Positions 4,149-23,858 of a stretch of 37,024 nucleotides of DNA are shown here, piece after piece. The stretch's first letter is position 1. Each line of letters opens with the position of its first letter. The notes below the pieces were generated by a model. The model was not told where the DNA came from, searched no databases, and worked only from the letters and a program-made list of their open reading frames with translations. The stretch comes from Eubacterium sp. TM05-53. Its GTDB lineage: Bacteria > Bacillota_I > Bacilli_A > Erysipelotrichales > Erysipelotrichaceae. Location: contig NZ_QSPK01000019.1 of the NCBI RefSeq assembly GCF_003436425.1, positions 1 through 37,024 on the forward strand, given 5' to 3'. A program made the translations under genes and the position numbers.

Positions 4149-4161
4149 TTTAATTTTCCTT

Positions 4162-5055: not shown

Positions 5056-5080
5056 GGATCATCACTCCTAATCTAGAAGT

Positions 5081-5322: not shown

Positions 5323-5372
5323 TTGACACAATTACCTACTGATATTAGTATAATATCTAAAGCTGACTTTAG
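5323..5372 (+). promoter_or_regulatory. merR promoter with 20-bp spacer and palindrome
   Basis: TTGACA (5323-5328) and TATAAT (5349-5354) are separated by 20 bases, longer than the usual 17 and typical of promoters that MerR proteins untwist. Just downstream is the inverted repeat CTAAAG-ctga-CTTTAG (5357-5372), resembling the TTTAAAGT-type sites of MerR regulators. The site lies over the expected transcription start, so it could also repress. Confidence 0.6.
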
Positions 5373-5390
5373 GTCAAGAAAGGAATCATT

Positions 5391-5828
5391 ATGTATACAA
5401 TTGGTCAAGTATCTGAAATGTTTGATTTACCCATTTCTACCCTTCGATATTATGATAAAGAGGGATTTTTCCCTCATTTAGTTCGCAAAGGCAATATTCG
5501 CTATTTCAGCAATCATGAAATTGAAGCTTTACATCTCATCGAGTGTTTAAAGAAATCTGGTCTTGGCATTAAAGAAATCAATCAATTCTTTAGTTGGGTT
5601 TCTGAAGGAAGTGCAAGTTTTGAAAAGAGAAAAGAGTTGTTTGAGGCTCGAAAAGAGGCTGTAGAAGCTGAAATCAAAAGTCTTCAAGAAACACTATCTT
5701 TATTAGAATTTAAATGTTGGTACTACTCAAAAGCTATGGAGGATGGTACAGAAGAATACCTTCAAGCAATGCTTCCAGACAAGCTTCCAAGTGACATTCA
5801 AAAATTATATGATGCAAGTCATAAATAA
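5391..5828 (+). CDS. MerR-family transcriptional regulator
   Basis: The 145-residue protein begins with a classic MerR winged HTH, YTIGQVSEMFDLPISTLRYYDKEGFFP, followed by RYFSNHEIEALHLIECLKKSGLGIKEI and a coiled-coil dimerisation helix (about residues 80-115). There are no Cys clusters of metal-sensing members; the single Cys residues at the centre do not form a motif. The C-terminal 30 residues are not recognised as a ligand domain. It belongs to the group that often controls a divergent or adjacent oxidoreductase or stress gene, but its only neighbours are convergent (sugar operon) and divergent (fic operon). Start supported by AAAGGA 7 bases before ATG. Its promoter has the long spacer of MerR autoregulation. 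Confidence 0.9.
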   Translation: MYTIGQVSEMFDLPISTLRYYDKEGFFPHLVRKGNIRYFSNHEIEALHLIECLKKSGLGIKEINQFFSWVSEGSASFEKRKELFEARKEAVEAEIKSLQETLSLLEFKCWYYSKAMEDGTEEYLQAMLPDKLPSDIQKLYDASHK

Positions 5829-5833
5829 GAAAA

Positions 5834-5855
5834 TGGAGCAGATATATTCTGCTCC
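5834..5855. terminator. Bidirectional terminator between merR and lnpA
   Basis: TGGAGCAG and CTGCTCCA arms pair around a short AT-rich loop. Followed on the minus strand by ATTTTC it can end the sugar operon that stops at 5905, and it lies 6 bases after the merR stop on the plus strand. The T-run is modest in both directions. Confidence 0.55.
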
Positions 5856-5904
5856 AAAGCTATTCAAAACCAGCTGGCTCGTTCTGATTTTGATTGACTG
5901 ATTC

Positions 5905-8049: not shown

Positions 8050-8065
8050 TTTATTTTCTCCCAAA

Positions 8066-9157
8066 CTAGTCAATTCTATTTTCAGTTTCCATATCAAAGA
8101 AATGTACTTTTGATAAGTCCATTGTTAATTTAATTGTTGAATGTGCTTCTGGTTCCAAACGAGAATTTACTTTGGCACACATTTTTTGTCCATTTAAATC
8201 ACCATGCAAAATATATTCATGGCCCAATAATTCGGCCACTTCAATTTCAAAATCAAAGTTAGCACTCGGATATGTATCAGCGACAATTCCCTCACCATGT
8301 AAATCTTCTGGACGAATACCCATGATAACTTCTTTTCCTTCGTAGCTAGAAAGTTTTTCTCTATACATCAAAGGAATTTCAATCTTCATGTCCTTTACAT
8401 GGAAGAAACCATTTGTATACGTACCCTTCACAAAGTTTGTTGCAGGCGCACCCAAGAATCCAGCTACGAATAAGTTTGCCGGATTATTATATATTTCTTT
8501 TGGTGTACCAATCTGCTGGATATATCCACCCTTCATCACAACAATACGATCAGCCATAGTCATGGCTTCGGTTTGATCGTGTGTTACATAAATGGTAGTA
8601 GCTCCAATACGTTCGTGAAGCTGAATGATTTCCGAACGCATTTGTACACGCAATTTCGCATCCAAGTTTGATAGTGGCTCATCCATTAAGAATACCTTCG
8701 CATTACGAACGATAGCACGACCCAAGGCAACACGCTGTCTTTGACCACCTGATAAAGCTTTTGGCTTACGATCCAAATAAGGCTCAATCTCTAAAATACG
8801 AGCTGCTTCATGCACACGCTTATCAATCTCTTCCTTACTATACTTACGTAATTTCAAACCAAAGGCCATATTCTCATATACACTCATATGAGGGTATAAC
8901 GCATAAGACTGGAATACCATCGCAATATCACGATCTTTTGGTTCCACATCATTCATTCTTTTTCCATCAATGTAGAAATCACCGGCACTAATCTCTTCCA
9001 AACCAGCAATCATACGAAGTGTTGTAGATTTACCACATCCACTTGGTCCTACAAACACAATAAACTCTTTATCTTTCACTTCTAAATTAAAGTCAAATAC
9101 AGCCTGAACATTGTTGTCATATATTTTATCAACATGCTGCAATGATAATTCTGCCAT
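8066..9157 (-). CDS. msmX: Sugar ABC transporter ATPase, MsmX/UgpC type
   Basis: This 363-residue ATPase powers a CUT1-class sugar importer. It has Walker A GPSGCGKSTT, the Q-loop, the signature LSGGQRQRVALGRA, Walker B VFLMDEPLSNLDAKLR and the switch His in VTHDQTEA, followed by a TOBE-type C-terminal domain of about 120 residues. All catalytic residues are present. In many Firmicutes one MsmX serves several importers from elsewhere in the genome; here it is embedded in the lacto-N-biose operon and may be dedicated to it or shared. It is preceded by a good ribosome site (AGGAGGAAG) and followed closely by lnpA. The gene name is by family resemblance. Confidence 0.93.
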   Translation of the reverse strand: MAELSLQHVDKIYDNNVQAVFDFNLEVKDKEFIVFVGPSGCGKSTTLRMIAGLEEISAGDFYIDGKRMNDVEPKDRDIAMVFQSYALYPHMSVYENMAFGLKLRKYSKEEIDKRVHEAARILEIEPYLDRKPKALSGGQRQRVALGRAIVRNAKVFLMDEPLSNLDAKLRVQMRSEIIQLHERIGATTIYVTHDQTEAMTMADRIVVMKGGYIQQIGTPKEIYNNPANLFVAGFLGAPATNFVKGTYTNGFFHVKDMKIEIPLMYREKLSSYEGKEVIMGIRPEDLHGEGIVADTYPSANFDFEIEVAELLGHEYILHGDLNGQKMCAKVNSRLEPEAHSTIKLTMDLSKVHFFDMETENRID

Positions 9158-9168
9158 ACTTCTTCCTC

Positions 9169-9342
9169 CTATTTATGTTTTCGATTGTATAGAAACAATA
9201 ATGTTAGTAAGCCTGTCAATCCAACGATTTCAATCATTAGATTACGAACACTTACCGTCTTCTGTGCCCAAATGATCATACCTAAGAACACAAAGAATAA
9301 TACGATCATAATTATGTTCATTCCTTTATTTTCATCTCTCAT
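9169..9342 (-). CDS. Small two-helix membrane protein (DUF6903-like)
   Basis: A 57-residue protein with two hydrophobic helices: NIIMIVLFFVFLGMIIWAQ and LMIEIVGLTGLLTLLFLYN, joined by KTVSVRN, and a basic tail NRKHK. Short proteins of this pattern, with QKTV...NL and a C-terminal LYNRKxK, recur between permease and ATPase genes of sugar operons in Firmicutes and are grouped as DUF6903. The ATG at 9342 is preferred over a GTG at 9351 because AAGG lies 8 bases before it. It sits 10 bases after the permease stop, in the operon. It may be an accessory of the transporter; function not known. Confidence 0.75.
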   Translation of the reverse strand: MRDENKGMNIIMIVLFFVFLGMIIWAQKTVSVRNLMIEIVGLTGLLTLLFLYNRKHK

Positions 9343-9352
9343 ATTAGACACC

Positions 9353-10213
9353 TTACTCTTTCATTCCACCAATACTCATGCCCTGTGTAATCTTCTTTTG
9401 AACACAAATATAAAGAACTAACGTTGGAATCATAACAATTACCAACCCAGCATACATGACACCAAAGTTTGCCTGTGACTTCGCATCCGCCATTAAGTAT
9501 TTAACACCAACGGCCAACGTAGCATTTTCTTTATCCATAAAAGTAAATGCGATAATATATTCATTCCAGAAAGCCAAGAATTGAAATAGGACAACCGTAA
9601 TAATACTTGGTCTTGCCATGGGAATCATAATCTTAGTCATTGTCTTAAAGTAGCCACAACCATCAATGCGAGCCGCCTCTTCATACGCCTTAGGCAACGT
9701 TTTAAAATAACCTGTCAACAAATAGATTGTGAAAGGTAGGGCCGTTGCCGCATACACGACAGAAAGCCAAAACTTACTATTTAAGAAAAAGTCAATTCCA
9801 AGCTTAATATCCGCATTAAATAACATTAAGAAAATTGGCAAAACAATATAGTTCACATTTACGAAAAGTCCGGCCATGAAAAGTCCATTAAAGAATTTCT
9901 TTCCCACAAAGTCAAATCGTGCCAAAACATACGATGCAGGAAGAGCAACCACCAATAGAATGACTAATGATAGTGCTGTTACAATGATTGTATTTAATAA
10001 ATAATCACCCATTCTTGCCTTCACAAAGGCATCCGCAAAGTTTGACCACAATATTTGTTTTGGAAGATCAAATGGATTTCCACTCACCAATTCCAATTGC
10101 GATTTTAAAGATGCAAGGAATACCCATGCGATGGGTACAATAATCGAAATAGCTAATGTGATCAGTGCCACATAAACAAAGATCTTGTATAAAGGAAAAT
10201 TATGTTTCTTCAT
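9353..10213 (-). CDS. Sugar ABC transporter permease, MalG type
   Basis: A 286-residue inner permease subunit of a CUT1 importer with six predicted membrane helices, starting with FVYVALITLAISIIVPIAWVF. The EAA loop that docks on the ATPase is EEAARIDGCGYFKTMTKIMIPMARP (about 197-221 in outline). The C terminus KKITQGMSIGGMKE is typical of MalG-like proteins. It pairs with the MalF-type permease just upstream (11-base gap) and with the lipoprotein to import the disaccharide that lnpA cleaves. Start supported by AGGA 7 bases upstream. Confidence 0.93.
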   Translation of the reverse strand: MKKHNFPLYKIFVYVALITLAISIIVPIAWVFLASLKSQLELVSGNPFDLPKQILWSNFADAFVKARMGDYLLNTIIVTALSLVILLVVALPASYVLARFDFVGKKFFNGLFMAGLFVNVNYIVLPIFLMLFNADIKLGIDFFLNSKFWLSVVYAATALPFTIYLLTGYFKTLPKAYEEAARIDGCGYFKTMTKIMIPMARPSIITVVLFQFLAFWNEYIIAFTFMDKENATLAVGVKYLMADAKSQANFGVMYAGLVIVMIPTLVLYICVQKKITQGMSIGGMKE

Positions 10214-10224
10214 ATCTCATCCTC

Positions 10225-11106
10225 CTAATACTGTAATACATCACGTTCAGTGATCTTATTTATGATGGCTGATAAGGCAAATGAGAATACGAAGATACAT
10301 ACTCCAACGGCCATACCAAATCCGTATTTACCAGCGAACGCATTGTTATACATATAGTTCAATGCCACTTCACTTCCTAGATTTCCCTCACTTGTCAATT
10401 GAACGAACATAAATGATAAGTTGATTGTAGAAATTACGAAGAAAGTTAAAGTTGTACGAATGTTATCCCAAATCAAAGGTAAAGTAATCATAAAGAACTG
10501 TCTGACTTTACTAGCCCCCTCAAGGCTTGCAGCCTCATATAGGTTTTCTGGAATACTCGACATACTCGACATATACATAACCATATAATAACCAATGGCC
10601 TGCCATACAAGGGCACCAATTATAGAATAGTTAATAACATCTGGATTTCCCATCCATTGTTGTTGTAAAGACGAAAGTCCAATCATACCAAAGAACGTAT
10701 TTAAAATACCATTCGTAGGTTGATAAATAGCTGAGAAAATACCTGCAATAACAACAATACTCAAAATATTTGGAATGTAGAAAATAACACGGAAGAAGTT
10801 TTTTCCAACAAACTCTTCACGAGTTAATAATGTCGCAAACAATACGGCCAACACCAAAGTGATGATCGTGATCAATACAACATACAAGATTGTATTTTGC
10901 ATAGCCTCAATAAAACGCATGTCGTTAAAAAGAACCTTAAAGTTGAAGAACCCAGCAAAAGTGGCATCACTTACGAAATTGCTCTTTTTAAAGAATGCTG
11001 TCTTAAATACATCAATCGTTGGAATCACCATAAAAATGAAGACTAGAATAACGGCTGGTGCAAGACACGCAAATACGAAACGATTTTGTGCTTTCTTTTT
11101 ATTCAT
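10225..11106 (-). CDS. Sugar ABC transporter permease, MalF type
   Basis: A 293-residue permease with about six membrane helices, the first being FVFACLAPAVILVFIFMVIPTIDVF. The EAA motif is YEAASLEGASKVRQFFMITLPLIWD. It is the shorter MalF type without the large periplasmic P2 loop, as usual in Firmicutes. GGGAGG lies 8 bases before the ATG. It follows the substrate-binding protein gene after a hairpin that probably lowers its expression relative to that protein. Specificity for lacto-N-biose or galacto-N-biose is inferred from the operon. Confidence 0.93.
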   Translation of the reverse strand: MNKKKAQNRFVFACLAPAVILVFIFMVIPTIDVFKTAFFKKSNFVSDATFAGFFNFKVLFNDMRFIEAMQNTILYVVLITIITLVLAVLFATLLTREEFVGKNFFRVIFYIPNILSIVVIAGIFSAIYQPTNGILNTFFGMIGLSSLQQQWMGNPDVINYSIIGALVWQAIGYYMVMYMSSMSSIPENLYEAASLEGASKVRQFFMITLPLIWDNIRTTLTFFVISTINLSFMFVQLTSEGNLGSEVALNYMYNNAFAGKYGFGMAVGVCIFVFSFALSAIINKITERDVLQY

Positions 11107-11125
11107 GAGTTACCTCCCATCTCTT

Positions 11126-11160
11126 AAAAAGCGACGAGCAACAATTTGCTCATCGCTTTA
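11126..11160 (-). terminator. Intercistronic attenuator hairpin after the substrate-binding gene
   Basis: AAAGCGACGAGCAA (11128-11141) and TTGCTCATCGCTTT (11146-11159) pair with one mismatch around a 4-base loop, followed on the minus strand by TTTTTAA. Its place between binding protein and permease genes is typical of partial terminators or mRNA-stabilising hairpins that give more binding protein than permease. Confidence 0.7.
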
Positions 11161-11167
11161 AGTTTAA

Positions 11168-12496
11168 TTATTCAGTTACAGCTTTGTTTTTAGATAATTT
11201 AACCCAAGCATCTGCTAATTTGCTTTGGTAATCTTTTGCAGTTAATTCACCAGTAGCTAAAGAGTCAATTGAACCAAATACTGTTGCAGCACGGTCAAAG
11301 TCTGGTAAGTTATCTGTATTGTAAGGAGCAAATGCACCTAATGCAGCAGAAGCAGTGTCATATACAGAGAAGAATTCTTTTGTATATCCATCTTCCATAG
11401 CCGCAATTGTGTCTGACATAGTTTCAGTTGGAACAATGTTTCCACCTTCAGCCATAATCTTAACGCCTTCATCCGAATAGATAAACTTCAAGAATGCTTT
11501 CGCATCATCTACGTTTTTAGCTTGAGCAGGAATCCATACTTGTTCAGTCATAGAACCAACGAAACGTTCACCATCTTTTTCTAATGCAGGCAATGGAAGT
11601 AATCCCCAGTGATAATCTTCAGGAGTTGTATCTGCCATTTCATTAACTACCCAGTCACCATTAGGCATGAATAATGCTTTTCCATCAATTACAGCCTGTT
11701 GGTTCATTGTGAAACCATCTTTCGCATTCGCATTTGCGACTGTATCAGAATATAAATAATCAGGACTTACTAATTTAGTTAAAATATCGATAGTTTGTTT
11801 AGCACCATCAGTATTCCAAGCATCCTTGTCATAATTTAATACATTAGTTAATAATTCTTCTCCACCAGTTTCTTTCAACAATGCATTTAATGTGTTGTCA
11901 AAGTAACCATTTGTTGGATACGTAAATAATGCGATACCATCTTTCTTAGCTTGATCACCTAAAGCCCAGAATTCTTCCCAAGTTGTTGGAAGTTCATATT
12001 TCTTTCCTTCTCCAACTAGTTCTGTATTATAGAAGAATCCAGCAGGAGTTGTCTTAAGTGGCATCAAATAAGATTTTCCATCACCATAATATTGTACGAT
12101 ACTACTATTTGCGTAGTTTTCATCCATACCAACTTCTTTAACTACATCTGAAATATCCAATACTTCATGAGTATTTAATTGAGTTTCAGTATATCCAGAA
12201 GGCTGACCTAAGTTATAGTAAACAACATCCGAATATTCACCCTTCGCATTTTCTTTATTCAATACATCAGGCAATTCTTTTTCAAAACGCAATTGAACAT
12301 CTACATCCGGATTTGCCTTTTCAAAAGCCTTAGCCAATTTTGTGAATACTTCTTCACCATTACCACCAGAGAAAGAATCAAATTTTAATACTCGCTTATC
12401 TCCAGAATCAGAATTTTCAGCTGGTTTGCTAGAACATCCTGCTAACATAGATGCTGCCATCGCAAATGATAATCCAGCAGTAATAATTTTTTTCAT
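11168..12496 (-). CDS. Sugar-binding lipoprotein of the lacto-N-biose importer
   Basis: A 442-residue extracytoplasmic solute-binding protein (family 1 type). Residues 1-20 are a lipoprotein signal peptide with lipobox MLAGC; Cys21 is the lipidated residue, tethering the protein to the membrane outer face. The mature part shows the bilobed pattern with LKFDSFSGGNGEEVFTKLAKAFEKANPDV at the start and GSMTEQVWIPAQAKNVDDAKAFLKFI late in the protein. AGGAGG precedes the ATG by 6 bases. It is the first gene of the operon. Binding of lacto-N-biose or galacto-N-biose is inferred from the GH112 gene in the same operon, not from motifs. Confidence 0.93.
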   Translation of the reverse strand: MKKIITAGLSFAMAASMLAGCSSKPAENSDSGDKRVLKFDSFSGGNGEEVFTKLAKAFEKANPDVDVQLRFEKELPDVLNKENAKGEYSDVVYYNLGQPSGYTETQLNTHEVLDISDVVKEVGMDENYANSSIVQYYGDGKSYLMPLKTTPAGFFYNTELVGEGKKYELPTTWEEFWALGDQAKKDGIALFTYPTNGYFDNTLNALLKETGGEELLTNVLNYDKDAWNTDGAKQTIDILTKLVSPDYLYSDTVANANAKDGFTMNQQAVIDGKALFMPNGDWVVNEMADTTPEDYHWGLLPLPALEKDGERFVGSMTEQVWIPAQAKNVDDAKAFLKFIYSDEGVKIMAEGGNIVPTETMSDTIAAMEDGYTKEFFSVYDTASAALGAFAPYNTDNLPDFDRAATVFGSIDSLATGELTAKDYQSKLADAWVKLSKNKAVTE

Positions 12497-12541
12497 ACTT
12501 TACCTCCTCATAAATTCGTATGAACCTCTTTTGACATGCCT

Positions 12542-12570
12542 AGTATAGCCTATTTGAAAGCGCTTTATCA
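12542..12570 (-). promoter_or_regulatory. Sugar-operon promoter with cre site
   Basis: TGAAAGCGCTTTAT (12555-12568) is a near-perfect CcpA operator (cre). It overlaps the spacer of a promoter read on the minus strand: TATACT at 12547-12542 as -10 and a poor -35 (TGATAA) at 12570-12565. CcpA bound there would shut the operon when preferred sugars are present. The weak -35 suits activation by the adjacent AraC protein. Confidence 0.75.
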
Positions 12571-12627
12571 TAAAAATATAGCTCTATATTTTAGATATAT
12601 TGTGGTTTAGTAATTTTGACAACAAAA

Positions 12628-12656
12628 TTGATAAACAATAGAAAACAATATATAAT
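12628..12656 (+). promoter_or_regulatory. Promoter of the AraC regulator
   Basis: TTGATA (12628-12633) and TATAAT (12651-12656) are 17 bases apart, a good vegetative promoter, about 20 bases before the start codon. AAGAGG gives the ribosome site. Confidence 0.7.
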
Positions 12657-12677
12657 AATACAAAAAGAGGTGTTTTT

Positions 12678-13514
12678 ATGAGTACACAACGCTTTCAAAT
12701 TGACCAAGTTGACTTCAATAAAGCCCGACCAAAACTACTATATATAACTGAATCCAAGTTCGATCACGAATGGAATTCCACCCTACATACCCATTTATAT
12801 ACAGAAATATTCTATGTGACAAAAGGCCATGGACTTTTAAGTTTAGACAACAAAAACTATCCCGTAAAAGAAGACGATCTCGTTATTGTCAATCCACTTA
12901 TCTCACATACCGAGCGTGGTATTGAAAATATCAACTTCGAATACATTGTTATGGGAATTGAAGGCGTCACCTTCTTTTCAAAAGAAGAGGACGAAGAAAA
13001 AGGATGTAGTATTGCCAACTATTATGAATACAAACACGAAGTATTATTCTATCTAAAAACCATTCTAATGGAAGTTAAGGCTAGAGATGCTGAATATCAA
13101 TCCTTATGCCAAAACTTATTAGAAGTATTACTGATCAACCTGATGCGTAGGGCCAACATTAGTTTAAAATCTTCACCCGTTAATAAAGCCAACAAAGACT
13201 GTGTCTATATTGAAAAATATATAGATGCTCACTTTAAAGAAGATATTACACTAGACACTTTAAGTGAACTCACTTTCTTAAATAAATATCACATTGTACA
13301 TGCCTTTAAACAATATAAGGGAATCTCTCCCATTAACTACATGATTCAAAAGCGTATTCAAGAAGCTAAAGTTCTACTTTCTACAACCAATCTTCAAATC
13401 TCAGAAATATCCATCATCATAGGATTTACGAGCCAATCCTATTTTGCCCAAGCCTTCAAAAAAGCAACGGGCATTTCACCTATTCAATTTAGAAAAAATC
13501 ATAGTGAACAATAG
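12678..13514 (+). CDS. AraC-family regulator of the lacto-N-biose operon
   Basis: A 278-residue activator. The N-terminal half (about 25-110) is a cupin-like sugar-sensing domain: HTHLYTEIFYVTKGHGLLSLDN followed by VKEDDLVIVNPLISHTE. The C-terminal hundred residues hold the two HTH motifs of AraC proteins, with FLNKYHIVHAFKQYKGISPINYM and the hallmark IGFTSQSYFAQAFKKATGISPIQFR. It is transcribed divergently from the sugar operon, with the shared intergenic region holding a weak operon promoter, so it is the likely disaccharide-responsive activator of that operon. Ligand unproven. Confidence 0.92.
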   Translation: MSTQRFQIDQVDFNKARPKLLYITESKFDHEWNSTLHTHLYTEIFYVTKGHGLLSLDNKNYPVKEDDLVIVNPLISHTERGIENINFEYIVMGIEGVTFFSKEEDEEKGCSIANYYEYKHEVLFYLKTILMEVKARDAEYQSLCQNLLEVLLINLMRRANISLKSSPVNKANKDCVYIEKYIDAHFKEDITLDTLSELTFLNKYHIVHAFKQYKGISPINYMIQKRIQEAKVLLSTTNLQISEISIIIGFTSQSYFAQAFKKATGISPIQFRKNHSEQ

Positions 13515-13658
13515 AAAACATATTATCACATTTATCTCTTTACACATTATACATCTACGAATACTAGTTTCTACCAGTAAAACACTGAATGAAAATAGTA
13601 TAGAATAAACAAGAATAGTACATATAATATCTTTCTAACAACCATATTTTTTCTCCTT

Positions 13659-14033
13659 CTAGAATCCATTACTCATCTGTACTTGTTGATCAAACATTTG
13701 TTGCTGCTGATCAAATTGTTGTTGTGCCATGTCATTTTGTTGATTAACCTGCTGCTGATTAAACGCATCCACCTGTTCATTGAATAACCGCATTTGTTCT
13801 CTAAAATATTCATGGTCTTGTAATGCGATTTGGCGGATATATTCCAATTCTTGATTGGTGCAATCCGTATAGTATTGAATAATGGATAATTCTTCCTCTA
13901 CCCAATCTTCATATGACGTATAGTTTTCTTCTTGTATTGAATAAGGATCGTTATAATCCACTGCACTTGTTGATTGAGCTGCACAACCCGTAAATAACAC
14001 TAACAATATTAATAAACTTATAATTTTATCCAT
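13659..14033 (-). CDS. Gln-rich lipoprotein
   Basis: A 124-residue secreted lipoprotein. Residues 1-17 form the signal peptide, with lipobox LFTGC; the mature Cys is followed by a short Ser/Ala segment. The C-terminal third is very rich in Gln (NQQQVNQQNDMAQQQFDQQ and more), with a repeating QQ-x-FDQQ pattern of coiled-coil or low-complexity type. It follows the membrane metallopeptidase gene by 16 bases, so both are likely one operon; it could be a partner or substrate. No known family is recognised. Ribosome site AAAGGA supports the start. Confidence 0.75.
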   Translation of the reverse strand: MDKIISLLILLVLFTGCAAQSTSAVDYNDPYSIQEENYTSYEDWVEEELSIIQYYTDCTNQELEYIRQIALQDHEYFREQMRLFNEQVDAFNQQQVNQQNDMAQQQFDQQQQMFDQQVQMSNGF

Positions 14034-14049
14034 TTTTCTATTTCCTTTC

Positions 14050-15138
14050 TCATTCGTACATTTGATATAAATTATTCAAATAATTATAGATATCTATATT
14101 CAATTCCTCTAATTCTTCTGGATCATTCACATACAATTCAGATGCTTCGGCAAAGAATTCACCTGGATTCGTAGTCCCATAATCGCCTAAGCAATCAGGA
14201 TTACTTTTATACAGACCAATCCATTCCGAATTATATGCAGGAGATCTTTTCTCACTACGCGAGAAATGTGTATAGTCATAAATATGTGCCAGTTCGTGTG
14301 TGACATGACTTTTTTGATCGTTGTATTCATCTGGATCCACTTGTAGAGTAATAGATTTATCTTCAAATGAGGCATAACCATATACTCCAAAGCCATGGTT
14401 ATCCATATCCACACCATCTTCACGAGCATATTTTTTAAACTTTTTTGGTGAACACAAATTGATTTGTTGACAATTATCCAACATAAACTGTGGCTGTGTC
14501 TTCACAAATTCATTTAAATATCTTTGTACATCCCCCACTTTCAATTTACTTCCGGCAACAATATGAATTTTCGGAAGATTTTGAACTGCAAAATACTCTT
14601 CCTCAATAATCTGATTGTATGTATCTTCAATTACAGCATATTCTTCTTTCTCTATACTTTTAACTACACGATACTGTATCCAAATTGGAGATAGTGTGAT
14701 AGCTAAAGCAATCGTAGTTAATACTAAAAGCACCTTCCTTTTAACTCCATTTGACTTAGACACATTGTCCTGCATATATTGAAGGCAATCCTGATTTTGT
14801 TCATATGTAAAATTCTGGATACGCTCCTGATAAAAATCATGCTTACTCGTCGCATCTAATAAATCAACACTTTCCAATGTGCCTTGGCTCAATCTGGAAC
14901 GAACATATTCTTCTTGAAGCTTATCTAGATCTACTTTCTTGCGATACAAAAGCAATAAAACAAGTAATGCGATTAATCCAGCCACAAGAATGCAGTAAGG
15001 CATTTTTAAATTATTAATCCAAACAAGTTCCATTCCCTTTGGATGGTTTAAACACATTAGCTTCTTTCGATAGCTTTGTAAAAAATCAACTACAACAAAA
15101 AATACAACTCCTGAAAAAAATAATTTAACCTTACTCAT
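14050..15138 (-). CDS. Membrane-anchored zinc metallopeptidase
   Basis: This 362-residue protein has three hydrophobic segments (about 6-20, 48-65 and 136-155) and a C-terminal domain with the zinc site HELAH at 281-285, followed by a Glu ligand candidate in NPGEFFAEA (324-332). HExxH plus a downstream E-F-F-A-E is the gluzincin arrangement, as in the lethal-factor-like peptidases. With three membrane spans and a cytoplasmic start, the catalytic domain would face outside. Residues 66-135 would then be a cytoplasmic loop. Operon partner is the Gln-rich lipoprotein. Substrate unknown. Neighbouring defence-type genes do not by themselves imply a role there. Confidence 0.8.
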   Translation of the reverse strand: MSKVKLFFSGVVFFVVVDFLQSYRKKLMCLNHPKGMELVWINNLKMPYCILVAGLIALLVLLLLYRKKVDLDKLQEEYVRSRLSQGTLESVDLLDATSKHDFYQERIQNFTYEQNQDCLQYMQDNVSKSNGVKRKVLLVLTTIALAITLSPIWIQYRVVKSIEKEEYAVIEDTYNQIIEEEYFAVQNLPKIHIVAGSKLKVGDVQRYLNEFVKTQPQFMLDNCQQINLCSPKKFKKYAREDGVDMDNHGFGVYGYASFEDKSITLQVDPDEYNDQKSHVTHELAHIYDYTHFSRSEKRSPAYNSEWIGLYKSNPDCLGDYGTTNPGEFFAEASELYVNDPEELEELNIDIYNYLNNLYQMYE

Positions 15139-15166
15139 TTTTATATCTTCCTTTCCTTTACATGAA

Positions 15167-15331
15167 TTAATAATTTAAGACTTCCTTTCGATAATCAAAT
15201 TTTGCCTTTCCCTTTCTCGTATACTTCTTCTTATTGCGATAAATATTCCCTCCTTGTCTACAAGCATCTAAATGCATTGGGTTCGGTAACTTTAAACTTC
15301 TTTCTTCAAATTTATATGTCTGTTTTTTCAT
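15167..15331 (-). CDS. Unannotated 54-residue basic small protein
   Basis: A short reading frame with a strong AGGAGG ribosome site 8 bases before the ATG. The protein starts MKKQTYKFEERSLKLPNP, has a central MHLDACRQGG and a very basic second half (NKKKYTRKGKAKF); about a third of residues are Lys or Arg. There is no hydrophobic segment or signal peptide. A single Cys lies in DACRQGG. It is 28 bases upstream of the metallopeptidase gene in the same direction and can be the first gene of that operon. A large palindrome lies upstream. The basic, aromatic composition suggests nucleic-acid or ribosome contact, but no family is recognised. Confidence 0.7.
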   Translation of the reverse strand: MKKQTYKFEERSLKLPNPMHLDACRQGGNIYRNKKKYTRKGKAKFDYRKEVLNY

Positions 15332-15370
15332 ATTCATTTCCTCCTGTTTGATTACACATTAAATATACTA

Positions 15371-15415
15371 TTCATAAAATGAATTAAAAATAGTTCATTT
15401 TAATTATTTTATGAA
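15371..15415 (-). promoter_or_regulatory. Long palindrome upstream of the 54-residue gene
   Basis: TTCATAAAAT (15371-15380) pairs with ATTTTATGAA (15406-15415), extended inward by AATTAAAA (15382-15389) against TTTTAATT (15398-15405), giving an almost continuous 18-bp stem with an 8-base loop. A third half-site, GTTCATTTT, lies in the middle. It sits 40 bases upstream of the small gene's start and is a probable operator or a stem controlling its mRNA. Confidence 0.55.
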
Positions 15416-15492
15416 CCCTTATTTAAATTTAATATAATATTATAATTAATTAACACTATTTTTTTACGAACACTATTTAGATAACATAATAA

Positions 15493-15521
15493 AAAGATGA
15501 TAATTTCAAACTATCATCTTT
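15493..15521 (-). terminator. Terminator of the CARF-HEPN gene
   Basis: AAAGATGATA (15493-15502) and TATCATCTTT (15512-15521) are a perfect 10-bp stem with a 9-base loop, followed on the minus strand by TTT and AT-rich DNA, 20 bases beyond the stop at 15543. Confidence 0.8.
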
Positions 15522-15542
15522 CTTATTCAACACTATGAAAAT

Positions 15543-18500
15543 CTAATTACCATGGATTTTTTTAGCCGTTTGAATCAATTGCTCCAATTGCTCTAAATAG
15601 AAGCGAACCCAATTTGCAACATCTTCGCTTGTATTTGTATATTTACCTAAGCTATGAACAGTGTCATTACGTATTAGTTTTAAAACCTTATAAACATAAC
15701 AAACTCTATAGAATCGTTCCAAAAAATCCGGATCGTTTCTTAATTTTTCTCTAACAAACAAATCTTGTTCTATATAAGGAGAACCATTATATTCTATTTT
15801 ATCGTATTTAGAATAATTAGAACCTAAAATCTTATTACGAAGGGCCTTATTTTTTTCTTCTATTCCATGCCATTTATTTTTATCTCTCCAATTTTTAGGA
15901 TTACCATAATAACAGTAATACTTTTCCGGATTTACTTTTTTATTTTTATGTTTTCGAATATTTTTAATGACTTTTTCTTCATTTGTAAAAATCTGGGTTT
16001 GTTGTTGGTTCATTTGCTTAAAATACACAGAAAACAAATCATTACTTGATATATCTTGTCCTTTATAATTCTTCCAGTCTTCACGATTTGAGAATAACGA
16101 TTTGTTAATAAAAGTCACAAATTGATTAATACACAATTTATTCTCATCTTCATCTGGACATTCGGCTTTTCGCCATGCTTCTACTTCAATGATTCCACTA
16201 TTTTTTAATTGACAGGCTGTTTTCGTCTCAACCAAAACCAAAGCTTGCTGCAAAAGATTTTTATCCAAACACCACTGCAATTGAGCAGGTAAATAATCTG
16301 AATTCTCTCCCAACAAATCATACATTTTGTTACTTATATTTACCTTATAATTATTTAATACTAAATCCTTTACAGTTCCATAATATCCCTTTAAATCTTT
16401 ATTCTCATCTAGAGTTTTTGCCAACTCTTTTAAATTAGCTGAAAAATTATCCATTCGATTCAATGATATGCTATTCGATATATTATTAATGGCATCAACC
16501 AGTCCATTCTCATTTTCATTTTCCACACTTTCATTAAATCGTACTAATCCATTTGAACGTCCAAAAGACAAGAATTCATGCATACCACCTACAAAATCAT
16601 AAACATAGAACACATCATCTAATAACTTAATAGAAGATTTGTGAGTTTTAGGAGAATAACCAGGAGTATAGATACCCTTTAATTCAACATTATCGATATT
16701 CTTAATTAAAGTTAAAATGGAATCTACAACCACACCAAACTCTCGTTGTCCGCCATTGATATCCACATATAAATTCACTTTGGCATTTTCAGAATGTGTA
16801 ATTAAACTTTTAGTAAACTCATTCAATGCTTTACTAATATTTACCTTTTCTTCTTCGTTTTCTAACATTACACCAACGATTCTAGATTCATCCTCAACTA
16901 AGCCACCAATTCTTTCTTTAAAATACTCAAAAGTTGTATATGTTTTATCACTACCTGTAAATTTCAAATTATATTTCATTGCTTCCTCAGGATTAACAAC
17001 TGCATATGTATTGAACACATAAATATAATCTAATTTTTCATCTTGATCAGCTAACATTTCAGCCAACATTTTAGGTATTGGTTCTTGTTGTGAAATATAT
17101 TTTCCCTCAAATTTTCTTTCGTCTGAACCATATTTTTTTTGAATGGAATAAAAATAATCTGAAAATCTTACACCAGCTAAGTAACTCATAGACAACAACA
17201 GAACATTTATTTCTCCAGAATTACCTTTTACGCTTTTTACCAAGTTCTTCAATTCTTCTTCTTTTTTCAACACTGCATCAAAATCAGGATTCCTTTTAAA
17301 TTCTTCCTCTACATTGACACTACCTTCCAATACAGTAATACATTCTCTCGAATCAATTGCTTGAATACTATATTTTAATACACCATGATTTTTCAAAACA
17401 CCCGTAGTGAACTCTTCTCCGGTATATATTTCACCATCAAAAGAAGTCATAATCCCTTTTATTTTTGTACCATTAGGTTCACTCACATTTATCTTGAAAC
17501 ATAATTGTGATTTATTTTCCACCAATTTAGCTTTCTCTAGACCCACACCATTTTCATCTGTAATAGAAAGAATCTCAATCATTGGTTTATATGATTCTGG
17601 AACCACTATCTTAATATCTTTTGTATAAGAAGATCCTATAAATTCATCCCCATAATACGTATTTAATTTAAAAGATACAAAACCTTCATTTTTATCCTTC
17701 ATCCATTCTTCTGGAATTTTAAAGATATATTCAAACGTTTTGCTTCCTGCGTCTATAGAAGCAATCTTTTCTTCTTTATTATCCAAAACTACATAGATTT
17801 CGTGAGAGAATTCTTCTCTTTGACTTACACAATTCATTCTAATGGAATCTTCAATTGTATATTCTTGTTTATCCGTTTCAATTGTAGAAGCAATTTTTTC
17901 AATAAATTCAAAAGAGGCAAATTTATTTTGGATATCTTTACCTAAATCACCATTCTCTGTATAGACAATCCAAACAAGATCACTATTCTTATCTGAAATA
18001 ACTGACAATAAGTTTTCAATAATTTCACTATTAGAGTCCTTATTATTTTCATCTAATTCATCTAAGCCTTTAACTAAGATTAATCCATGCTTATTTTGAT
18101 ATTCATCTACGTCAATCAATTCTTCAACGTTAATAATTTCAACGATTTTCGAATAAATAACATTATAATTTTTTGAATTCAACAATCTCGCATAATCTCT
18201 CGAAAATTGTTTAACAACAAAAAAATCGTCTGCCTTTAAGATTAAATTATATTCTTTTCTTCCAACCTTTTTTCCGATATTATTCTGTGCAAATCGTAAA
18301 ATATCTTGAATGCATGTATAATTTGAAAACTTATCTTCAATATCATTTTGGACAACATCGCTTGATTCTTTTTTCCAATATCTTGGAATTGTATTTGCAC
18401 CAAACACATAGGGTTCTCCCAAAATCTTAGATTGTTTAATCAAACGATCTTTCAATCCGAACACAAAGTCTTTTCCCTTTTTGTCCGCTCTTCCATAGAC

Positions 18501-19100
18501 TGTATCAATCCATTGTTCTAATGCAGGATAAAAGTCATCCTTCAATTTAATTTCACCTAGACATTGCCATTCATCAAAATAATAATGTGCACCATCCATA
18601 ATATTTTGTATTGTATATGGTTTTAAAGTGATTCTACTCTCAAATAATTTGTAGTAATCTTCTTTAAAAAATGCCTTATATTGTTCAGTTCTTTCTTTTG
18701 TCGTGTAAAAAATTGTCACCATATTCAATCGATCATTAAATGGTGAGCGCACTATTCTTTTCGATATAATATCTAGGCTATTTTTATCTACTGACTTATT
18801 ATCAAAATCATTAACAAGCACACAATCAAAGTTATCACTGATTGGTTTATCCCATAAGAAAGAAGGTCGGTTTACATAATATGATATTAAACCTTCTTTT
18901 TTTAATATATTAGCTACACCTTGCGCAAACAATGTAGCTTGCTCTTCATCTTGAGCAACCACCAACATTGTTGGATACACCTTTTTTAGATCATCTTTCA
19001 AATCATTTTTTACATAATTAATAAATCCAATTAATTCCTGTTCAATTGGATCCATGTCTATAAACCCATTAAACACTAAACCCCATTCGTTTTCTTTCAT
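15543..19100 (-). CDS. Large CARF-HEPN protein with degenerate AAA-like modules
   Basis: A 1185-residue protein. The part at about 630-840 resembles the CARF domain of the TM1812/Csm6/Csx1 group: it opens with INVLLLSMSYL (631-641) and has the ligand-loop motif DINGGQR at 780-786. The C-terminal helical region holds RNDTVH (1144-1149), the R-x4-H motif of HEPN ribonucleases. So a nucleotide-activated RNase is likely. Residues 1-170 and about 255-400 each look like an AAA fold (KGLDELDE in place of Walker B, then WIVYTENG, as in CbbX-type AAA) but neither has a GxxxxGKT loop. About 500-600 is beta-rich and Ig-like. No Cas10, Cas6 or CRISPR array is in the window. GAGGA lies 7 bases before the ATG, with TATAAT at about 19129. 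Function is inferred from motifs; the modules 1-630 are judged by pattern only. Confidence 0.75.
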   Translation of the reverse strand: MKENEWGLVFNGFIDMDPIEQELIGFINYVKNDLKDDLKKVYPTMLVVAQDEEQATLFAQGVANILKKEGLISYYVNRPSFLWDKPISDNFDCVLVNDFDNKSVDKNSLDIISKRIVRSPFNDRLNMVTIFYTTKERTEQYKAFFKEDYYKLFESRITLKPYTIQNIMDGAHYYFDEWQCLGEIKLKDDFYPALEQWIDTVYGRADKKGKDFVFGLKDRLIKQSKILGEPYVFGANTIPRYWKKESSDVVQNDIEDKFSNYTCIQDILRFAQNNIGKKVGRKEYNLILKADDFFVVKQFSRDYARLLNSKNYNVIYSKIVEIINVEELIDVDEYQNKHGLILVKGLDELDENNKDSNSEIIENLLSVISDKNSDLVWIVYTENGDLGKDIQNKFASFEFIEKIASTIETDKQEYTIEDSIRMNCVSQREEFSHEIYVVLDNKEEKIASIDAGSKTFEYIFKIPEEWMKDKNEGFVSFKLNTYYGDEFIGSSYTKDIKIVVPESYKPMIEILSITDENGVGLEKAKLVENKSQLCFKINVSEPNGTKIKGIMTSFDGEIYTGEEFTTGVLKNHGVLKYSIQAIDSRECITVLEGSVNVEEEFKRNPDFDAVLKKEEELKNLVKSVKGNSGEINVLLLSMSYLAGVRFSDYFYSIQKKYGSDERKFEGKYISQQEPIPKMLAEMLADQDEKLDYIYVFNTYAVVNPEEAMKYNLKFTGSDKTYTTFEYFKERIGGLVEDESRIVGVMLENEEEKVNISKALNEFTKSLITHSENAKVNLYVDINGGQREFGVVVDSILTLIKNIDNVELKGIYTPGYSPKTHKSSIKLLDDVFYVYDFVGGMHEFLSFGRSNGLVRFNESVENENENGLVDAINNISNSISLNRMDNFSANLKELAKTLDENKDLKGYYGTVKDLVLNNYKVNISNKMYDLLGENSDYLPAQLQWCLDKNLLQQALVLVETKTACQLKNSGIIEVEAWRKAECPDEDENKLCINQFVTFINKSLFSNREDWKNYKGQDISSNDLFSVYFKQMNQQQTQIFTNEEKVIKNIRKHKNKKVNPEKYYCYYGNPKNWRDKNKWHGIEEKNKALRNKILGSNYSKYDKIEYNGSPYIEQDLFVREKLRNDPDFLERFYRVCYVYKVLKLIRNDTVHSLGKYTNTSEDVANWVRFYLEQLEQLIQTAKKIHGN

Positions 19101-19229
19101 TTCAAAATCCTCATTATCTATAGATAGATTATATTCTAAAAAGAGAATTCAGTCTAATACAATCCCATTATATCTAAATCAGTATTGCCATAATGCCTAA
19201 AAATCATTGAACTTCGCTTTATCATTTTA

Positions 19230-20018
19230 TTAGCCTATACATTCTAATAATTCGGGACAATTTGTTCTATAAAAGTCATGGATCATTTGACTCACTTCCC
19301 TTACATCAATGCCATATGCTTTTATAACACGACACAATTCATCAAAGTTCACACGAACTCGATTTTTTTTCATAACAATCGAATTTAATTTTTCCACTCC
19401 ATTCAATACTTCATTCATTTCTACATTTACTTCTAAAGCCGATGGAAATACAACTAACCCATTAATAGGTACAGATAATCGTTTCGATTTATTTATGCCA
19501 AACAATATCCTTTTTTGATTATGCATCTGGCGAATTGGATTACGCATAGTCTTATCAAAACCATTATTTTTATATTGTTTCCAAACTCTATCACCTACAT
19601 CCCCTTCAATTACGCCCTTATGATTTTTAACTTCTACTACATACATTCCATAAGGGCTCATGACTAAAGCATCTACTTCTGATCTATTTCCGTTACATGA
19701 AATAGGAACATTTGTCGCAACAACGTATTCTTCAGGTAAATATTTTAATGTGTCAAACACCTCATTTTCTCCACTTACTCCACTCTCTAAAATATTTGCC
19801 TCACTCATTAAATTTCCATGTTTATACATCAGATAAATCATAACCACTATACTTATCCCTTCAACAAACAACCAAAGTTTTGAAACTGGCACAAATATAG
19901 AAAAGGCAATCAATTCTATAATCATACCAATTCCTACATTTCTTACTTTATTCGCCTGATTCATTAAATCATTATATTTATCTTCATTTTCATTTCTATT
20001 ATGAAATACATAAGCCAT
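19230..20018 (-). CDS. Membrane NERD-domain protein
   Basis: A 262-residue protein. Two hydrophobic helices (about 28-75, NVGIGMIIELIAFSIFV and LFVEGISIVVMIYLMY) precede a NERD (nuclease-related) domain: SGENEVFDTLKYLP, then EVDALVMSPYGMYVVEVKNHKG with the Glu-x-Lys of PD-(D/E)xK-like folds. NERD domains are predicted nucleases, often with DNA-processing partners. The start is placed at 20018 because AAAGGAGTG lies 8 bases before it; an upstream in-frame ATG at 20075 has no such site. The C-terminal 70 residues (from about 195) are not recognised. Same strand as the CARF-HEPN gene 129 bases downstream, which has its own promoter. Role unknown; possibly defence. Confidence 0.8.
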   Translation of the reverse strand: MAYVFHNRNENEDKYNDLMNQANKVRNVGIGMIIELIAFSIFVPVSKLWLFVEGISIVVMIYLMYKHGNLMSEANILESGVSGENEVFDTLKYLPEEYVVATNVPISCNGNRSEVDALVMSPYGMYVVEVKNHKGVIEGDVGDRVWKQYKNNGFDKTMRNPIRQMHNQKRILFGINKSKRLSVPINGLVVFPSALEVNVEMNEVLNGVEKLNSIVMKKNRVRVNFDELCRVIKAYGIDVREVSQMIHDFYRTNCPELLECIG

Positions 20019-20078
20019 TTTTATCACTCCTTTACTACACAAATACATGTATGCAAAGTAATAAAAATTAACCAAAAG

Positions 20079-20104
20079 AAAAAGATATCCGAAGATATCT
20101 CTTT
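20079..20104 (-). terminator. Terminator after the P-loop/CYTH gene
   Basis: AAAGATATC (20081-20089) and GATATCTCTTT (20094-20104) form a stem with a UUCG-type tetraloop, followed on the minus strand by TTTTTC. It ends 4 bases from the stop of the CYTH gene, so the NERD gene that follows needs its own start of transcription. Confidence 0.75.
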
Positions 20105-20107
20105 AAA

Positions 20108-21199
20108 CTATTTAATTTTAGCAAGTGAAGAATTCTTATATTGAATATCATCCGTTACTTCTTTTAACACCTTAATAATTTTAGGAAAACGAATTTCTTC
20201 ATTTGGATCTGACAATTCAATTTCCATAATTGCCTTATCTTTCCAAAATGGATATACATCAATTTCAAAATATTGATTACCATCCATCAGACAATAACGA
20301 TTCTTTCGAACAGGTCTTTTAGAAGTATCCGCATCCATTAATTTTTCTAGATATTCATCTTTAGAAAGTCTTTTTTCTATTTCAATACGCTTCAAACCAG
20401 TAATCGCAATCTTACACGTTTCAAAATAGATATAATTCCCCTTACTGCCACGCTGACGAATACGTCTTTCTTCTCCTTCAGCCGAATTCAAATAGGTTTG
20501 AATAATCTCTACCTTTTCACAATTTGGAATTGATTCCAACATATCAATATCTGGATATTCAATCAAAAACTTCTTTTCAATCTCAAAAGGTTCAGGTTCT
20601 CCTAAGAAAGTAGAAATCTCTTTAATCAAATGCTTCATCTTTTCTTCAAAGCCAGACGCATTATCAATCACTCTAAAATGTGGATGGCCTGTCCAAGCTG
20701 AAATCAACTTATCATCCAAAGCAGCCGCTTCTTCTACCGTTTCTGTACGAGCTGTATTATTTGCTGTTGTATAGAACTTTTCAGCTCCCTTTGCAGCTGT
20801 CACCAAATGAAAAACCGCATCATAATTGTCTCTTAATTCAATTTCATTATCACCAAAACAATCTAGGATATTCTCAAATTCTTTATCTGTCATGTATGCC
20901 TTACTATCTAACATACCTCGATCACAAACAATTAGAATCTTTTCAGCATCCATTGACTGAGCTGCTCTTTCAAATACAGCCTCCTTTTCCTTTTGAAGTT
21001 GCATCAAACACTTTTGGTATTCATAATTACACGAACAAGTCCATGGAGCTACTCCACCTGTAATTAATTCCGTAGATGTTTCAGGAACAAATAATACAAC
21101 ATACCCTCGTTGCGTTAATGTATTTTGAATCCAACTCATTCCTGTTGTCTTACCTGCACAAGGGCCTCCTGTAATTACAATTTTAGAAATAGTTTTCAT
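20108..21199 (-). CDS. P-loop NTPase fused to a CYTH (triphosphate tunnel) domain
   Basis: A 363-residue protein. Residues 1-185 form a P-loop kinase-like domain with Walker A GGPCAGKTT (11-19) and ILIVCDRGMLDSKAYM in the Walker B place. Residues about 200-363 are a CYTH domain opening with FEIEKKFLI, the ExExK metal-binding motif of triphosphate tunnel enzymes, and containing RIRQRG and IEKRL Arg/Lys strands of the tunnel. CYTH enzymes hydrolyse tripolyphosphate or thiamine triphosphate, or cyclise ATP. The fusion resembles the layout of plant TTM1/2 proteins (kinase-like plus CYTH). Substrate unknown. RBS AAAGGA supports the start. IS66 lies only 28 bases upstream, so its natural promoter is cut off and it may be read from the IS. 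Confidence 0.85.
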   Translation of the reverse strand: MKTISKIVITGGPCAGKTTGMSWIQNTLTQRGYVVLFVPETSTELITGGVAPWTCSCNYEYQKCLMQLQKEKEAVFERAAQSMDAEKILIVCDRGMLDSKAYMTDKEFENILDCFGDNEIELRDNYDAVFHLVTAAKGAEKFYTTANNTARTETVEEAAALDDKLISAWTGHPHFRVIDNASGFEEKMKHLIKEISTFLGEPEPFEIEKKFLIEYPDIDMLESIPNCEKVEIIQTYLNSAEGEERRIRQRGSKGNYIYFETCKIAITGLKRIEIEKRLSKDEYLEKLMDADTSKRPVRKNRYCLMDGNQYFEIDVYPFWKDKAIMEIELSDPNEEIRFPKIIKVLKEVTDDIQYKNSSLAKIK

Positions 21200-21301
21200 A
21201 TCTCATTATCCTTTCCTTAATAAAAAGGTAAGCGTCAAATAGGGCCCATATTAAAAGATCCGATTTGAAATGATACAATGTCATTGTCAATCGGATCTGT
21301 T

Positions 21302-22996
21302 CTATTTTACATATAGATTCTTTGGCAGCTGTTTAGAGTACGGCAATACACTATTTATGATTTCGTTTGATAATCCTTTGGTGCTCAATGTATCCAACAC
21401 ATATTCCAGATATTTATATGGATTTAGTTTATTCATTTTTGCGGATTCTATTAAACTGAAATATATAGTACTTGCTTTGGCTCCGTTCTTTGTGTTTGAA
21501 AATAAGAAGTTCTTTCTGGCTATTACGAATGGTTTGATTCTTTGTTCAGCTAGATTGTTGCTTAATTCGCAGCGACCATCTTTAAAGAAATTTCTTAGAT
21601 ACTCTTCTTCATGGAATGTATAACTGATTGCTGATCCCATTTTTCCTTTTGGCAGGTATTGGCCTTCTATTTCATGAAGGTACGCAAAAAACTCATTGAA
21701 TATAGGCAATGACTCTTCCTGACGTCTCTTATAGCGTTCGGATGGTGTTGCACATTCTTTTTTCAATGTTTCTTCAATTTTAAACAGTTTGTTTATATAA
21801 TGGATCGCTACCAGAATATTTTTATATCCAGGATGGCTGTCAAGATATTCGATTCGTTCTTCTCTTGTAGAAAGCTTTCGAATTTCTTTTTCTCCAACGG
21901 ATGCTTTCTGGGCTTCTACGAATTTCCTTCGTACATGTGCCATGCATCCAACAACCATCAAACAAATATCCTTATGATATGCTTCGTATCCATCACTGTG
22001 GGCTATGGCGTGGCTGTCTTCTCCAAGTATCATTGTCGCATTTTCGTATTTGCGATTTCCTGGACTAAAGTACAGTGCCATCTGATTGGTTTCGAATGTT
22101 CCGCTCATTCCCATCCACACATATCCCTTTTTTCGACCGTCCTTACAGTCTTCAATGATTTGCAGTGGTGTTTCATCCAAATGTACAATCTCCAGCTTTT
22201 TAAAGTCTTCACACATCTGATCGAATACATATTCCAGATAATCATTTGAACACTGCATCATCCAGTTGCTCATATTTTGACGGTTGATGCATATATTCTG
22301 TCTGTTCAGATCCTGTTCTTGTCTATATAGTGGTGTTCCCAATACATATTTATTATATGCCAAACCTGCAACAGCACTTGATGTTACAACGCTGCCTTCA
22401 ATAAGACGAACTGGTTTATCTTTAGGTTCTACACAAACAATTCCATCACTTTCCTTTGAACATTCAGGACACACATAGTTATGGATTACATGTTTGATCA
22501 AGAACCATTCTGCTGGTTTGTATTTTAATTCATACGAAATCGTTGGCTTTAACTCTTTCATCAAAGAACCACACTCTGGACATGATCTGTCTTTTAATGA
22601 ATGATGGATTGTTTCTTTTATTTCCAAATCTGAATAATCATTCTCTTTCGCTTTTGGTTTTCTCTTTTTGCCTTTTTTTGTATCCTTGACCTCAGGCTCC
22701 AATAAATCTACCGGATTCACATTATCAAGTGTCTTTTCGATTTCATTGAATAAAGGAAGCATTTCCAGACTTGTCTTTTCAGAAGTTGAGCCAAACTTGC
22801 TTCTTTTCATGGATGCAAGCTGATCCAAATATGTCATTTTAGAAATCGTTTCTCCAATCGCATATTCCATCAGCTCTTCACGGTCCATTTTTTCAAGCTT
22901 TTCTTGTAATTTATTAATTTCTTCAACATTTATCATACGCATAATATTATACCACAAACATGCATAAAAAGCCCGTAAATAAAGCGTTTTATGCAT
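21302..22996 (-). CDS. tnpC: IS66 transposase (TnpC)
   Basis: The 564-residue protein is the catalytic transposase of IS66. It has the N-terminal coiled coil (INKLQEKLEKMDREELMEY), the zinc-finger CPECGSLMKELKP, a helix-turn-helix and the DDE core (HLDETPLQI, HSDGYEAYH, and E in NNLAEQRIKPF). The start ATG overlaps the tnpB stop by 8 bases, typical of IS66 coupling; alternative starts are MRM/MIN at 22942 and 22936. Length is normal (about 520-560), so it is probably active. Confidence 0.95.
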   Translation of the reverse strand: MHKTLYLRAFYACLWYNIMRMINVEEINKLQEKLEKMDREELMEYAIGETISKMTYLDQLASMKRSKFGSTSEKTSLEMLPLFNEIEKTLDNVNPVDLLEPEVKDTKKGKKRKPKAKENDYSDLEIKETIHHSLKDRSCPECGSLMKELKPTISYELKYKPAEWFLIKHVIHNYVCPECSKESDGIVCVEPKDKPVRLIEGSVVTSSAVAGLAYNKYVLGTPLYRQEQDLNRQNICINRQNMSNWMMQCSNDYLEYVFDQMCEDFKKLEIVHLDETPLQIIEDCKDGRKKGYVWMGMSGTFETNQMALYFSPGNRKYENATMILGEDSHAIAHSDGYEAYHKDICLMVVGCMAHVRRKFVEAQKASVGEKEIRKLSTREERIEYLDSHPGYKNILVAIHYINKLFKIEETLKKECATPSERYKRRQEESLPIFNEFFAYLHEIEGQYLPKGKMGSAISYTFHEEEYLRNFFKDGRCELSNNLAEQRIKPFVIARKNFLFSNTKNGAKASTIYFSLIESAKMNKLNPYKYLEYVLDTLSTKGLSNEIINSVLPYSKQLPKNLYVK

Positions 22997-23715: not shown

Positions 23716-23858
23716 CTTCGATTGGTGTTTTTTATCAACATTGATGTATTAATTTTCTAATGTATTATACCAAAAAAGACCGATATTCAGATTTTTAAAT
23801 CTTGAATATTCGGTCCTTTTTTATTAAGCTGAAACTTCTTTATCCGTTACAGCTCCTT
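23716..23858. repeat. 143-bp direct repeat, copy 1, with terminator
   Basis: All 143 bases match 32764-32906 exactly. It holds a strong bidirectional hairpin (AAGACCGATATTCAGATTT region, 23773-23822, flanked by A and T runs), which ends the reductase transcript. The match stops at the second base of the reductase stop codon. The left edge coincides exactly with the IS66 end. An ATTGGTGTTTT half-hairpin (23721-23731) has no partner here but has one in copy 2. Confidence 0.9.

Follow-up and report, generated by a model that had tools for sequence, protein, structure and literature searches.

The window analyzed here is the whole 37,024-nucleotide stretch of contig NZ_QSPK01000019.1 from Eubacterium sp. 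TM05-53 (Erysipelotrichaceae). It contains a giant gene whose product (P0001) is, as profile matches and predicted structure support, a CARF-HEPN effector that differs from Csx1/Csm6 in its N-terminal half. The gene occupies 15543..19100, as an earlier sequence-only reading had correctly placed it without giving a strand; it lies on the minus strand and is read from 19100 to 15543, starting with ATG and ending in a stop after 1185 codons. Two protein-collection searches, each scoring only about 7,990 candidates, returned at least 162 and at least 158 proteins at E ≤ 1e-3, and the open reading frame (ORF) is, hence, not a chance one. The matches listed, 120 per search, include two organism names, one Holdemanella biformis and one Erysipelotrichaceae. 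The ORF is intact, and full-length homologues exist at 90–94% identity. A full-length copy is present in one of 272 genomes of the family, the same one being found among 60 relatives, and a scan of genome contigs likewise returned H. biformis DSM 3989 only.

The C-terminal half of the protein is built in the order known from Csx1/Csm6 effectors, namely, a CARF domain followed by a HEPN domain. The CARF domain (residues 630–850; 16551..17213, minus strand) is assigned by profile and fold matches. It begins with the strand-1 motif INVLLLSMSYL (residues 631–641; 17178..17210, minus), which is recognized in sequence and alignment and within which V633–L636 are invariant in an alignment of 12 sequences. 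The same alignment shows D780, G783, G784, and R786 of the motif DINGGQR (residues 780–786; 16743..16763, minus) to be invariant in 12/12. A helical linker and the HEPN domain follow (residues 851–1185; 15546..16550, minus), carrying the catalytic motif RNDTVH (residues 1144–1149; 15654..15671, minus). Herein, the R-x4-6-H signature of Csx1/Csm6 effectors is formed by R1144 and H1149, which are invariant in all 12 sequences together with N1145, and the RN...H pattern occurs in 142 of 145 family proteins. CARF and HEPN profiles match within residues 657–1170, with PADLOC giving 5.7e-25 for CARF2--CARF_HEPN and 2.2e-19 for Csx1/Csm6, while TIGR02221 (cas_TM1812) reaches 23.0 bits and stays under its curated cut-off of 76.25 bits. 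The predicted model matches the fold of Marinitoga Csx1-Crn2 (8y7g), aligned over residues 630..1185.

The N-terminal half comprises two AAA+-like modules and a β-sandwich. Module 1 with its lid spans residues 1–245 (18366..19100, minus) and the core of module 2 residues 246–401 (17898..18365, minus). A model of this half reaches a predicted local distance difference test (pLDDT) score of 83.2, and its top fold matches are tandem AAA+ unfoldases. The AAA+ fold is thus found over residues 1–404 of the predicted structure, but the Walker A P-loop is not: the pattern G-x4-GK[ST] occurs in the first 480 residues of 0/145 family proteins, many of which are near-identical and three shorter than 1000 residues. 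Neither sequence nor alignment searches matched the modules to any solved AAA+ structure. Hence, the N-terminal half is proposed to be a pseudo-ATPase, whose two modules would be unable to bind ATP by a P-loop. An origin of the two modules by tandem duplication was considered and no claim is made of it (profile comparison probability 25%, E 7.8e-4).

The β-sandwich, formed by residues 402–598 in the predicted model (17307..17897, minus), has its homologue in a tail protein of phages (PHROG 372/DUF859). PHROG 372 matches P0001 at 2.9e-16, with residues 404–597 aligned to positions 131–332 of the 743-position profile. Pfam DUF859 lies above its gathering score in all three long-form homologues scanned (P0010, P0017, and the protein of stretch L006; 52.6–55.5 versus 28.8 bits); in P0001 itself that score is not reached, and the Pfam scan names no family for the whole protein. 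The protein database also attaches PF27248 to P0001 and to several of its relatives, an entry absent from the local Pfam scans. Among solved structures, a sequence search with the giant protein gave one unrelated weak match (E 0.19) and an alignment query none. The sequence-only reading had placed the three motifs at the residues given above and had described a CARF-HEPN architecture, two AAA-like modules lacking Walker A loops, an Ig-like segment, and an N-terminal half unlike Csm6/Csx1. This anatomy is right and somewhat richer than described there, the Ig-like segment being, more specifically, the tail-protein homologue.

The family exists in at least one further architecture. A search with residues 1–430 returned 27 proteins, among them short forms of 1050–1088 residues (P0009 and P0139–P0143). 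These retain module 1 (61–95% identity in the four measured), the module-2 core, CARF, and HEPN but lack the β-sandwich; a different, shorter segment follows module 2, which by eye may be an AAA lid. The module-2 core is homologous between short and long forms (hhalign probability 99.3, E 2e-20). When the modules of the 142 proteins of at least 1000 residues are clustered at 60% identity, 10 combinations result, with 120 proteins in one of them. P0006, for example, shares at least 89% identity with the window protein through CARF, followed by 51% and 26%. Modules are thus reshuffled between alleles, and single rows could be assembly errors.

The giant gene is part of a conserved block on the minus strand. 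Directly upstream lies a NERD-domain protein gene (19230..20018; Pfam NERD 1.5e-25; 67% identity in H. biformis); as called, its ORF starts with TTG at 20075, and the ATG at 20018 fits the H. biformis homologue better. Following the giant is a basic ORF of 56 residues (15167..15337), conserved as 55 residues at 13774-13941 of H. biformis stretch L006, the AGGAGG upstream of its start being kept together with the ORF. Next comes a metallopeptidase of the M90/ATLF type with an HELAH motif (14050..15138; Pfam Peptidase_M90 31.1 versus 26.2 bits), a conserved neighbor whose hydrophobic stretches, read by eye, may be membrane anchors. A small lipoprotein-like gene, so named by eye and without a Pfam family (13659..14033), ends the block. 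A scan of 13500–21400 found no terminator; inspection by eye shows an A+T-rich hairpin downstream of the stop codon of the giant, on which no claim rests. No RNA family reached its gathering score in the window.

Compared with the nearest genome examined (G001, contig C52), window positions 5515–13522 are 98.8% identical over 8 kb; the similarity ends at 13522, after which G001 has a methyltransferase and a helicase. The giant's block is therefore cargo at a variable site, which begins at window position 13523 (L027 9013-12092) directly after an AraC-type regulator gene. IS66 and other transposases lie near the block. Searches for carriage on mobile elements found no match to the giant by tblastn in 72,556 plasmid records, one match in 50,697 phage records that covers the tail-like segment only, and 47 pattern matches in viral contigs with no relative among them; weak or missing VIA matches carry no weight as evidence of absence.

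Other parts of the window hold identical 143-bp direct repeats (23716–23858 and 32764–32906) that bracket a group of siroheme/heme genes together with two transposase units, a 752-residue protein in which porphobilinogen deaminase, tetrapyrrole methylase, and HemD domains are fused (25979–28237), and, near the right edge, HsdM and HsdS of a type I restriction-modification system (33233–36264).

In H. biformis DSM 3989 (contig NZ_DS996841.1, which is contig C39 of genome G002, with stretches labeled L006 and L015), the block sits at a different chromosomal site. DNA similarity to the window runs in pieces from the NERD gene past the giant to the second peptidase and the lipoprotein-like gene. 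NERD and an M90/ATLF-like peptidase precede the giant, and the small ORF, another peptidase, and the lipoprotein-like gene come after it; hence, peptidases flank the giant on both sides (L006 8876-9916 and 13955-15043), compared with one side in the window. Both fall just under the Peptidase_M90 cut-off (20.0 and 25.0 bits). A CRISPR array with 14 repeat copies (L015 316-1258) ends some 100 bp short of the start codon of NERD. Beyond this array follow an amylase-like gene, recognized by eye, and a type III-D operon consisting of Csx20, Cas7, Csx19, Cas7-III-D, Cas5-III-D, Cas10d, Cas2, Cas1, Cas6, a second Csx20, and a second array. PADLOC gives 2.2e-34 and 5.1e-29 for the two Csx20 proteins and 3.3e-113 for Cas10d, TIGR03986 gives 1.7e-113 for Cas7, and NCBIfam cut-offs are passed by Cas6, Cas1, Cas2, Csx7, and TIGR03986. 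About 10.7 kb separate the Cas10d gene from the giant. By a rough hand estimate, a random gene would lie this close to a CRISPR locus with a chance of a few per cent (n=1 genome). The contig also carries, at another place, a separate III-A locus with Csm1 over its cut-off, a CARF-HEPN protein of 493 residues, and its own Csx20; further III-D-type repeats lie at C39:322394-326277, distant from the cas operon.

A search for matches to the CARF part across the family genomes and the relatives yielded eight genes, and the stretch fetched around them contains Cas10 in five: the giant and those of L016, L018, L043, and L044. The match in L041 has Csx20 only, on a contig of 8.7 kb. In L018, a stop codon splits an ordinary-size CARF-HEPN gene of a III-D locus (3960-5492) into two ORFs, one of 206 and one of 298 residues, adjoined by Csx20 and Cas10d. 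For loci L017 and L019 and for the tail-like matches L003, L005, L033–L036, and L038–L040, the analysis covers the match rows.

Taken together, we assign a probability of roughly 0.72 to the giant being a Csx1-type CARF-HEPN ancillary effector of a type III, III-D-linked, cyclic-oligoadenylate pathway. Because its relative adjoins a type III-D locus, a CRISPR effector with added decoration is the probable reading, not a new system that stands alone. The sequence-only reading, thus, stands in its CARF-HEPN effector with AAA-like modules devoid of ATP sites, whereas its placement outside CRISPR with another signal becomes the weaker interpretation. As general claims, "outside any CRISPR locus" and "stand-alone" are not supported, since the H. 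biformis block adjoins a III-D array; a type III locus with the giant as its effector is nearly what this genome, the only other carrier found, presents.

Several observations weigh against this assignment. The linkage to III-D is seen in one genome, and the amylase-like gene and the array stand between the cas operon and the giant's block. The names of the III-D subunits come mainly from PADLOC, with Cas10d (to Csm1), Cas5/Csx10, Csx19, and the Csx20 scanned staying below NCBIfam cut-offs. No such co-location is seen in the 37-kb window: two patterns derived from H. biformis repeats gave 0 matches, no array-like repeats appear, and a search with 11 cas proteins of relatives gave no match at E ≤ 1e-3, in line with the earlier statement that no cas gene is present locally. 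G001 contains no match to the giant, Csm1, Cas10d, or Csx20, and it lacks arrays of these repeats, its repeat matches being at chance level (2 versus 3 for the control); a Cas1 match stays below its cut-off (56 versus 71.7 bits). For two of the eight CARF-matched genes, L042 and L045, the contigs (10.6 and 16.7 kb) show neither Cas10 nor Csx20 among the nine ORFs scanned in PADLOC, one of which is the CARF-HEPN itself. Finally, the full-length model is middling (pLDDT 67, predicted template modeling score 0.38), with pLDDT < 50 at residues 1003–1057 and 1063–1110.

Mechanistically, Cas10 would make cyclic oligoadenylate, most likely cyclic tetra-adenylate (cA4), whose binding to the CARF domain would switch on the C-terminal HEPN RNase (R1144, N1145, and H1149); nonspecific RNA cutting would then stall the infected cell. 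The N-terminal half would serve as a noncatalytic scaffold, either determining how the effector oligomerizes or docking it to a partner. From the fold and from the literature on Csx20 and III-D, we infer a putative cA4-activated RNase with a putative noncatalytic AAA+ scaffold: passages of PMC12409355 describe Csx20 as degrading cA4 and as strongly associated with Csx1, and passages of PMC11229360 state that III-D Cas10s seldom carry HD, suggesting that III-D mainly signals. Since the block in the window strain occupies a variable site in the chromosome, with no CRISPR locus in view, the effector there would have to be driven in trans by a presumed type III signal; inter-locus signaling is raised for loci without effectors in passages of PMC11229360. 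As a more speculative extension, which we consider improbable, the captured phage tail domain and the two nucleotide-free AAA+ modules might provide a second input, the effector firing only once a structural component of the phage is there along with the cyclic nucleotide, or a ring-shaped pseudo-unfoldase might gather several CARF-HEPN units into a higher-order RNase.

The sequence-only reading had instead proposed a stand-alone CARF-HEPN RNase that answers a nucleotide from a source other than CRISPR Cas10. The strain-variable site, which is not a CRISPR locus and before which synteny to the nearest genome breaks off (13522), and the lack of cas matches in the window would suit it. So would the gene upstream of NERD (20108-21199), which combines AAA_28 (3.5e-26) with a C-terminal part matching 2fbl (NE1496; 1.2e-06), presumably a triphosphate-tunnel (CYTH-type) enzyme, and whose product is the only neighbor for which acting on a nucleotide would be conceivable. 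A figure legend of PMC10910872 names CYTH among the CARF/SAVED genes linked to CRISPR, and stand-alone CARF-nuclease genes are reported in passages of PMC3710099. However, the upstream gene is present in five of 60 relatives, none of them with the full giant, and is absent from H. biformis; because of this missing linkage, it is not counted as a signal-making partner. The Pfam scan of 16 window proteins lists no cyclase family, Cas10 accompanies five of the eight CARF-matched genes, and in the only other carrier genome found, the giant adjoins a III-D array accompanied by two Csx20 genes. Hence, a stand-alone sensor is unlikely. Improbable too is an effector block that has moved from its CRISPR locus, lacks a signal in the window strain, and is kept only transiently: the differing chromosomal sites, the transposases close by, and a near-species genome without Cas10d would fit, but the ORF is intact, its catalytic motif is kept, and full-length homologues persist at 90–94% identity. 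It is very unlikely that the AAA/β-sandwich half detects some part of a phage, such as a tail protein, so that HEPN is released only when the cyclic nucleotide is present as well: the tail homology of residues 404–597 would fit, and the reshuffled modules and the diverging HEPN parts suggest an arms race, but the short form without the tail-like module still has CARF and HEPN, no partner is known, and a β-sandwich can be a passive spacer.

Compared with cA4-activated Csx1 proteins such as Marinitoga Csx1-Crn2, the ancillary effector proposed here shares the CARF domain followed by a helical/HEPN half with RN...H and, in H. biformis, a Csx20 and III-D neighborhood. It differs in its size, 1185 residues versus 493 for the ordinary CARF-HEPN of H. 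biformis, with about 600 extra N-terminal residues that form two AAA+-like modules and a tail-like β-sandwich. For Csm6-2, a 2026 paper (PMC13187428) reportedly describes cA5. In passages of PMC11229360, Csm6-2 is activated by cyclic hexa-adenylate (cA6) and is likewise an enlarged CARF-HEPN polypeptide of III-D, but it repeats the unit (CARF-HEPN-CARF-HEPN), whereas the giant has a single CARF-HEPN, and its N-terminal half is unrelated. Tandem AAA+ unfoldases (ClpC and p97/Cdc48), CbbX, and RuvB resemble residues 1–404 in predicted fold, with two modules in tandem in the giant, but the giant's family lacks a Walker A motif in its first 480 residues (0/145), and there is no sequence match to a solved AAA+ structure. 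Of the siphovirus tail protein (DUF859/PHROG 372), the giant carries a single internal segment, placed inside a CARF-HEPN protein. Kinase-AAA-CARF-winged helix-turn-helix proteins and RtcR also combine AAA+ and CARF in one protein; in passages of PMC4012209 these are AAA+ ATPases, one with a P-loop and one NtrC-like, with a helix-turn-helix domain instead of HEPN. An AAA-AAA-CARF-HEPN protein is not described in passages of PMC4012209, PMC12669027, PMC12409355, PMC9704534, PMC3710099, PMC10910872, and PMC11229360, and may be in print elsewhere.

Csx1/Csm6 effectors are compact combinations of sensor and toxin. In the giant, this core is extended by a large, conserved pseudo-ATPase part, the presumed scaffold, and by a domain resembling a phage tail, and at least two interchangeable versions exist. 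It would also allow a test of whether effectors that lie apart from CRISPR loci are driven in trans. If the scaffold sets the size of the assembly or adds a second input, collateral RNA cutting in gut bacteria would be subject to a further, new level of control.
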